A DNA stretch of 64,000 nt. It comes from Haladaptatus cibarius D43. Its GTDB lineage: Archaea; Halobacteriota; Halobacteria; Halobacteriales; Haladaptataceae. The first letter of the stretch is position 1. The number at the start of each line of letters is the position of its first letter. The stretch spans positions 496,001-560,000 of the forward strand of contig NZ_JDTH01000001.1 in NCBI RefSeq assembly GCF_000710615.1, in the 5' to 3' direction. Position numbers and translations under genes: made by a program. The notes beneath the pieces are model-generated. The model was not told where the DNA came from. It saw only the letters and a program-made list of their open reading frames with translations, and searched no databases. Of the stretch, positions 38,890 through 61,344 are shown one piece after another.

Positions 38890-39345
38890 ATGACGACGCT
38901 CTACGACGTTCCGGCCGACGCGCTCATCGAAGCGCTTGCCGACGAGCTTGAGGATCGAATCGACGAACCCGACTGGTTCGAGTTCGCCAAAACCGGCGCA
39001 CAGCGCGAACTGCCACCGGAACAGGACAACTTCTGGTACATCCGCGCGGGCAGTCTTCTCCGCAAGGTCGCCACCAGCGCCCCGGTCGGCGTCGAGCGAC
39101 TCTCGACCGAGTACGGCGACAGCAAATCCGGTTCGAACCGCTACTCCGTCGCGCCAGCACACCGCGCCGACGGAAGCAAGAAGGTCATCCGAACCATCCT
39201 CCAGCAACTCGAAGAGGAAGGGTTCATCAGCTCCAGCGAGAGCCGTGGCCGCGAAGTCACCGGCGAAGGTCGCAGTTTCCTCGACGACACGGCCGGTGAG
39301 GTCATGGAAGACCTCGACCGACCGGAACTCGAACGCTACGCGTAA
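38890..39345 (+). CDS. rps19e: 30S ribosomal protein S19e
   Basis: A 151-residue small-subunit protein. TTLYDVPADALIEALADEL, QDNFWYIRAGSLLRKV, GVERLSTEYGDSKSGS, VIRTILQQLEEEGFI and the C-terminal GREVTGEGRSFLDDTA are signatures of S19e, required for pre-rRNA maturation in eukaryotes. It heads the conserved archaeal pair with PDCD5, but here a 384-bp gap separates them. Confidence 0.97.
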   Translation: MTTLYDVPADALIEALADELEDRIDEPDWFEFAKTGAQRELPPEQDNFWYIRAGSLLRKVATSAPVGVERLSTEYGDSKSGSNRYSVAPAHRADGSKKVIRTILQQLEEEGFISSSESRGREVTGEGRSFLDDTAGEVMEDLDRPELERYA

Positions 39346-39490
39346 ATTCGGAATTTCAGTTTTCGACTATCGGTTTCCTTTGAGTAGTTACGGCTTTACG
39401 CGGTTTGTGTGGTTTTTACCGCTGGTTTTCTCGTTTGGTCGATTGCAGTGACTCAAATCACGACTCCAAATACCGCCTTCGCATGCGGAC

Positions 39491-39515
39491 GAGTGCGCCG
39501 ACCGCTGGCGCACTC
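39491..39515 (+). terminator. Hairpin with T-rich tail downstream of rps19e (copy 1)
   Basis: GAGTGCGCC pairs with GGCGCACTC (9 bp) around the loop GACCGCT, followed by ACCTTTTTC. It could end the rps19e transcript about 150 nt after the stop. The core GCGCCGACCGCTGGCGC is repeated in the hairpin at 39551. Confidence 0.4.
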
Positions 39516-39550
39516 ACCTTTTTCGTCCCCGACCTCCCCGGGCGCTCGAC

Positions 39551-39577
39551 CACCTGCGCCGACCGCTGGCGCAGGTG
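39551..39577 (+). repeat. Related hairpin (copy 2)
   Basis: CACCTGCGCC pairs with GGCGCAGGTG (10 bp) around the identical loop GACCGCT. The shared core is GCGCCGACCGCTGGCGC, while the outer stem differs from copy 1 on both sides in a complementary way. Confidence 0.65.
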
Positions 39578-39729
39578 TCCTCGCCGCGCGTCCAGACCGG
39601 GTGTGTGGATTCCGAGATACCGATGTCCGAAAATTCGAGATTCGGGAAATCCCATCGCCTTTTCCCGCCCGGTCGAACGCTGTTGTCCGTAATTGTTTTT
39701 GGTCGTGCGCGGTAACGAAGTGATAAGGC

Positions 39730-40071
39730 ATGAGTGGAAGTCCTGACGACGACCGACTGGAAGAGCTTCGAAAGAAAAAGATGGAGGAGATGCAAGACCA
39801 AAAACAGCAAGAAGAGGCCCAACAACAGGCAAAACAGCAGGCCGACGCCCAGAAGAAGGCCCTGCTCCGGCAGTATCTGACCGACGGTGCGCGAAAACGA
39901 CTGAACTCGGTTCGGATGAGCAAGCCGCAGTTCGCAGAACAGGTCGAACAGCAAATCCTCGCCATCGCCCAGAGCGGGCGCATCAACGGCAAAATCGACG
40001 ACCAGAAGATGAAAGAACTGCTCCGCGAACTGAAGCCCGACAAAAAGAGCTTCAACATCAAACGCCGCTGA
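39730..40071 (+). CDS. DNA-binding protein, PDCD5/TFAR19 family
   Basis: A 113-residue archaeal PDCD5 homologue. It has a charged, Gln/Lys-rich N-terminal helix ([18 protein letters not shown]), [39 protein letters not shown], and the C-terminal [15 protein letters not shown] with its basic tail. The helical bundle binds DNA weakly; the archaeal function is undefined. It is followed after 1 nt by the PP-loop ATPase. Confidence 0.94.
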
Positions 40072-61225: not shown

Positions 61226-61310
61226 CCGAACCGAAACCAAATCGAATAATGTGTCTTGGGCTGCAGGTTTTGCTGGTCGTTCGGATTCTCACCTCGTTTC
61301 ACTGGATGGG

Positions 61311-61344
61311 GCGGGTCGGTCGCCCACTGGCGACCGACCCGCCG
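61311..61344 (+). promoter_or_regulatory. 15-bp hairpin in the samp1 leader
   Basis: GGCGGGTCGGTCGCC (61311-61325) pairs perfectly with GGCGACCGACCCGCC (61330-61344) around the loop CACT. It ends 52 nt before the samp1 ATG. It could be an RNA regulatory element, an attenuator, or, as a near-palindrome, a protein-binding operator. Confidence 0.6.

Follow-up and report, generated by a model that had tools for sequence, protein, structure and literature searches.

The closest described systems, cited here from excerpts of the papers concerned, are the REP sequences and BIMEs of bacteria, the PATEs of Haloquadratum walsbyi and hairpins reshaped by template switching. REPs and BIMEs are short intergenic palindromes present in many copies, with variable stems and loops and often paired or inverted, and the excerpted text presents the CGTC superfamily of bacterial REPs as having no dedicated transposase (PMC3733652). 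PATEs are haloarchaeal and non-coding, with palindromes near their termini and no inverted termini, and have IS605-type ends and differ between strains (PMC3119063). Template switching homogenises the arms of a hairpin and inverts its spacer (PMC8604942); it can also create compensatory pairs and inverted loops, loop inversions being rare in RNA genes (PMC8794818). In these excerpts such hairpins are described in yeast genes, microRNAs and rRNAs.

The element reported here resembles REP/BIME in its short, often paired intergenic palindromes with variable stems and loops, but is archaeal, has mostly longer stems and holds two hairpins within a 140-nt unit. Like PATEs, it is haloarchaeal and non-coding, with near-terminal palindromes and no evident inverted termini; unlike them, it occupies positions common to several species, and several carriers have no Y1 transposase. 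With template-switch hairpins it has homogenised arms, compensatory pairs and inverted loops in common; the difference is that an entire dispersed family is involved and that the loop inversions lie at orthologous sites. Overall, we read the two hairpins as one copy of a palindromic DNA element that is dispersed between genes and specific to the lineages Haladaptatus and Halorussus. Its anatomy is REP/BIME-like, and several carriers have no Y1 transposase. We give this reading a probability of about 0.6. The family is apparently an undescribed archaeal repeat family, since we found no description of it in the excerpts of the literature searched, including PMC3119063 and PMC3733652.

Membership of the RAYT-mobilised or tagged REP classes was considered and rejected. 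PF01797 (Y1, RAYT) gave 0 matches in the own genome (G000) and in 6 other carriers (G001, G004, G008, G011, which is Halorussus amylolyticus, G016 and G018), and a GTAG tag was present in none of the hairpin flanks examined. Unlike in the CGTC REPs, CGTC stood no more than 14 nt downstream in only 21 of 48 hairpin-1 and 29 of 49 hairpin-2 units, at a variable distance of 0-9 nt.

Anatomy of the element between the S19e and PDCD5 genes

The window is the whole 64,000-nt stretch of the Haladaptatus cibarius D43 genome that was analysed (C1:496001-560000). Its copy of the element (locus L173) has the following parts and neighbours:

38890-39345, + strand: ribosomal protein S19e gene, upstream neighbour (PF01090, E 5.1e-44)
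39454-39593, + strand: full composite two-hairpin element (covariance-model match, model positions 1-141 of 141)
39454-39488, + strand: 5' leader of the CAAATCACGACTCCAAATACCGCC..CGCATGCGG type (18-copy alignment and leaders of the 52 matches)
39491-39515, + strand: hairpin 1, GAGTGCGCC / GACCGCT / GGCGCACTC (hairpin scan)
39516-39550, + strand: linker with conserved TCCCC-N(2-4)-CCTCCCCGGGCGCTC (nearly invariant alignment columns)
39551-39577, + strand: hairpin 2, CACCTGCGCC / GACCGCT / GGCGCAGGTG (hairpin scan)
39578-39593, + strand: 3' conserved block ending in CCGCGCGTCC (alignment columns)
39594-39620, + strand: weakly conserved tail of the AGACCGGGTGTGTGGATT type, seen by eye in some copies only
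39730-40071, + strand: PDCD5-family gene, downstream neighbour (PF01984, E 6.1e-29)

The first-pass annotation had recorded two hairpins with the same GACCGCT loop, a common 17-nt core and differing but fully paired outer stems in the gap between rps19e and PDCD5. All of this held: the stems are perfect over 9 bp and 10 bp, and both neighbours were identified by Pfam. The window has exactly two occurrences of the core GCGCCGACCGCTGGCGC (39495-39511 and 39556-39572), and the own genome has 5; the pattern read backwards has 0 there. Its other genomic copies sit in similar surrounding sequence, and the repeat unit is therefore larger than the hairpins. Perfect hairpins (stem of at least 9, loop of 3-9) numbered 18 in the window and 1-8 in 20 dinucleotide shuffles, so that single hairpins are only moderately enriched. 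The combination of two hairpins with a common 17-mer and differing, fully paired outer arms is not due to chance. Folding of 39450-39610 gave z scores of -3.46 as DNA and -3.17 as RNA. As a covariance-model match, the window copy corresponds to G000:C1:535454-535593 (+), of about 140 nt, with an E value of 9.4e-29.

The general layout is a leader, hairpin 1, a linker CCCC-N3-CCTCCCCG, hairpin 2 and GCGCRTCC. In the 18-copy alignment this order appears as a leader like CAAATCACGACTCCAAATACCGCCACCGCATGC, hairpin 1, TCCCC with about three free bases and CCTCCCCGGGCGCTC, hairpin 2 and a block ending in CCGCGCGTCC. Some copies contain an extra module between the hairpins, with a GAGGCA/GACCGCT/TGCCTC hairpin of its own. 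A constant inner core with varying outer arms, as in the window copy, is the general pattern of the family, and stem sequences are exchanged between the two hairpin slots. The same core carries GGGCGAG or GGACACC arms, and wholly different stems also occur, such as GTTCGCGC. One copy (L215:3057-3289) holds an extra hairpin-rich module inside one arm of hairpin 1; this insert resembles the small mobile repeats of Haloquadratum that are reported, in the excerpt cited, to target palindromes (PMC3119063).

The S19e-PDCD5 gap measures 384 nt here, and the haloarchaeal median is 105 nt (56 measurable of 58 loci tried). Three species carry the element in this gap (G000, H. litoreus G005 and H. pallidirubidus G006), and the gap of a fourth (G008) has none. 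The motif CCTCCCCG[GC] matched at this gap in 2 of the 58 named haloarchaeal loci: L057 (H. litoreus) is a true copy, and L072 was judged by eye to be an unrelated insertion. The H. pallidirubidus copy (L058) is also true, and was missed by the motif because of its variant linker. Hairpin 1 at this locus has the loop GACCGCT in G000 and G005 and AACGGTC in G006. Occupied and empty gaps both exist, too diverged from each other for the element ends to be placed. Unrelated sequence enlarges the gap in other haloarchaea (L061, L072, L108, L109, L111-L113), and in Halorientalis (L112) it is hairpin-rich with TTTTTTGGTCCAGCTTTTTT. Upstream of the PDCD5 gene, at about 39684-39715, lies CCGTAATTGTTTTTGG, and a very similar stretch (CCGTAATCATTTT) is found in many haloarchaea; it is probably a promoter.

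Copy number, positions and age of the family

Three covariance models were used, R1 built from 18 copies, R2 from 46 and R3 from 35; R3 describes hairpin 2 and its linkers. R2 gave 52 matches with E <= 1e-4 in 8 of the 9 Haladaptatus genomes, the own genome holding 12; R3 gave 106 matches in 11 of the 18 genomes of the sister genus Halorussus and none in the single genome of a third genus. When set beside the copy numbers of REPs, the richer genomes hold about 10-20 copies each, with a maximum of 21 in Halorussus, and all these counts are lower bounds because only part of the first-look candidates was scored. With R3 and stricter filters, an order-wide search matched 19 of 293 genomes, all Haladaptatus or Halorussus; of the 265 genomes drawn from the order's other families, 0 gave a match. 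The first-pass annotation had called for a search of this genome and its relatives, and more copies indeed turned up in both. A dispersed repeat, which it named only as an alternative, is the correct class.

In Halorussus the element has a single hairpin: hairpin 1 is missing, and a leader of degenerate ACCGC/ACAGC repeats stands in its place. This form retains CCCC-N3-CCTCCCCG, the hairpin and GCGGCGCRTCC; near the end of 41 aligned Halorussus matches, GCGTCC was found in 20 and GCATCC in 20. In L264, L266, L294 and other copies of this genus, the 3' tail contains degenerate repeats in tandem, each about 26 nt long and of the GCGCGTCCCGTGGTCGGTGAAGATTC type. Exact-core matches in 7 sister-genus genomes (L030-L036) and in L040 looked coding by eye and were set aside. 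L220 (G001) is probably coding and unlike the family; it was left out of the ortholog grouping and of the G:T and A:C counts, and is still among the 52 copies of the gene-context count. Of 49 fetched loci, 44 went into A3; L181, L199, L215, L218 and L220 were omitted because they were odd, truncated or insert-bearing.

Gene context was assigned with a home-made ORF caller (acidic composition, GC3) and was clear for 47 of 52 and 33 of 40 copies. The copies are intergenic and occupy co-directional, divergent and convergent gaps alike. This position between divergent genes argues against tandem transcription terminators, which had been suggested for the window copy and its T5 run after hairpin 1. 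Across the family a T4 run followed hairpin 1 in 6 of 49 copies and hairpin 2 in 0 of 50, and we regard this explanation as very improbable.

Many copies occupy the same gap with the same neighbours across species (neighbours identified by Pfam, orthologs grouped by BLASTP of heuristic ORFs): the ftsY/THUMP methyltransferase gap in 5 species, the polyprenyl synthase/DUF5814 gap in 6 and the RNA polymerase L/COX3 (cytochrome oxidase III) gap in 4, with HemC and others among the further common neighbours. At orthologous loci of the two Haladaptatus clades, 0.681 of the unpaired element columns were identical; the flanks reached 0.578 and 0.587, the random level given by non-orthologues (0.575 and 0.583). 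Since the elements are still recognisable while their flanks are saturated, the family must have occupied these sites for a long time, with its linkers under constraint.

These linkers bear on a further explanation, that of a decayed and functionless repeat in which template switching alone preserves the palindromes. The published excerpts describe a process able to maintain perfect arms in this way (PMC8604942, PMC8794818), the copies vary widely, and 1 of 9 Haladaptatus and 7 of 18 Halorussus genomes have no copy at all. However, a mere relic does not fit linkers that outlast saturated flanks, and we hold this explanation to be improbable.

The shared positions also weigh against a recently active, non-autonomous mobile element of the PATE/MITE type, with hairpins recognised by an IS200/IS605 transposase. 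The two palindromes, the many copies and the lack of evident inverted termini would suit such an element, PATEs are known from Haloquadratum according to the excerpt cited (PMC3119063), and 15 of the 28 family genomes have Y1 transposases. Yet the carriers named above gave no Y1 match, one genome with 7 Y1 matches (G021) has no element, and copies at common orthologous loci point to an old family, which makes recent activity quite improbable. An early suspicion of adjacent TnpB-like ends was unconfirmed and dropped. No clear case of fresh transposition emerged, a point against the palindromic DNA element we favour: the best candidate pairs are inverted copies about 4 and 6 kb apart with 92-95% identity in one Halorussus genome (G018; L304, L305). 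When compared with G014, the first of these pairs is consistent with an inversion between its copies, and a composite transposon was rejected on this ground.

Paired changes in the stems

RNA structure is conventionally proved by covariation, and a selected RNA made from one strand is expected to show wobble pairs above the mirror mismatch. In the first-pass annotation, the matching changes on both arms had been taken as a sign of selection for the structure, as in an RNA element or a protein target, and a covariation analysis had been proposed. We found massive covariation, both between copies and between orthologous loci. In the alignment of 46 copies, which was fitted to the structure and is biased toward pairing, 91.1% of the pair cells were paired, against 36-51% in slid controls, two-sided changes affected 25 of 26 pairs, and 244 cells were double changes, against 70.1 in shuffles. 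Two sets aligned with MAFFT gave 48 double-change cells against 14.3 and 156 against 57.6; in the second, 12 pairs had two-sided changes, a number reached by 147 of 500 shuffles. Among 300 changed pair comparisons at orthologous loci, 176 went from one Watson-Crick pair to another, 34 involved G:T, 36 A:C and 54 other combinations. The stems are thus near-perfect yet almost free in sequence. The arm covariation is real, and alone it is no proof of selection on RNA.

We observed no wobble signature of a plus-strand RNA. In Haladaptatus G:T numbered 32 and A:C 42 (interior pairs 16:25, p 0.21), a count in which the one hairpin of L218 was scored in both slots and contributed one A:C and three other mismatches twice; in Halorussus the numbers were 0 and 8. 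The pooled figures, 50 A:C and 32 G:T, allow at most a weak minus-strand signature. Of 102 slots, 39 had a loop in plus orientation, 9 an inverted one, 51 a loop of another kind and 3 no loop; among the 10 orthologous slots in which at least 2 species keep a GACCGCT-type loop, 7 showed both orientations. Taken together, the missing wobble preference, the inverted loops and the published signature of template switching lead us to take the covariation as mainly DNA-level. Thus the matching changes stood and their reading as selection on RNA did not, with G:T no more frequent than A:C, mostly Watson-Crick swaps and inverted loops. Most likely, the arms change together through copying of one arm from the other in DNA; selection to keep an inverted repeat may act as well and is compatible with the data.

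A structured RNA made from one strand, a small RNA or UTR element whose two hairpins are kept by selection, would account for the double changes and the paired cells, as well as for the conserved single-stranded linkers and the intergenic position. It would also fit two observations that lean toward the minus strand and speak against a palindromic DNA element. The slight A:C excess suits a weak wobble tolerance in a minus-strand RNA, and of 48 cases in co-directional gaps, 34 have the element antisense to the genes, a mild bias that is only a hint because orthologues are counted repeatedly. Against such an RNA stand wobble pairs without clear excess on either strand, loops inverted between species, the occupation of co-directional, divergent and convergent gaps and a search of Rfam that matched no curated family up to E 5. 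We therefore consider it unlikely. Overall, the covariation in this family is as strong as that of an RNA family, but comes without wobble preference and with loop inversions, which makes the family a ready test set for DNA-level arm copying versus selection on RNA.

Conserved linkers and the putative role of the element

The reading as a dispersed palindromic DNA element rests on the dispersal of the copies, their fixed layout, conserved linker motifs, orthologous positions, near-perfect stems of free sequence and both loop orientations. As a mechanism, we propose that now and then, during replication, template switching makes one arm serve as the template of the other, or that copies exchange hairpins. 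Either event would rewrite both arms at once and flip the loop, and the arms would stay perfect. Frequent conversion between copies is opposed by their likeness: copies within a genome were 0.660 alike and same-clade non-orthologues 0.661, so that strong genome-wide homogenisation is unsupported.

Should the perfect stems be wholly a product of mutation, no constrained parts but the linkers would be left, which is a point against this reading. The blocks CCCC-N3-CCTCCCCG and GCGCRTCC beside a hairpin or palindrome could be the recognised part, and the element would probably serve as a DNA site for a protein or as a chromosome-structure element, possibly descended from an old non-autonomous mobile element. 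We infer that its present role is most likely that of a putative DNA site recognised through the linker blocks. A more specific version is tentative: the two archaeal genera would share a chromosome-site system absent from present catalogues, in which a putative protein would read the dispersed DNA hairpin through the two blocks while template switching continually rewrites the arms as a unit. If true, it would be a natural case of family-wide covariation arising at the DNA level and prone to being misread as RNA structure. The family also adds to archaeal repeats one with conserved, protein-site-like blocks at housekeeping loci.

Elsewhere in the window, at 61310-61343, the scan gave its longest perfect hairpin, GGCGGGTCGGTCGCC-CACT-GGCGACCGACCCGCC, with a stem of 15 bp. 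It is apparently intergenic and, by its sequence, stands outside the composite-element family.
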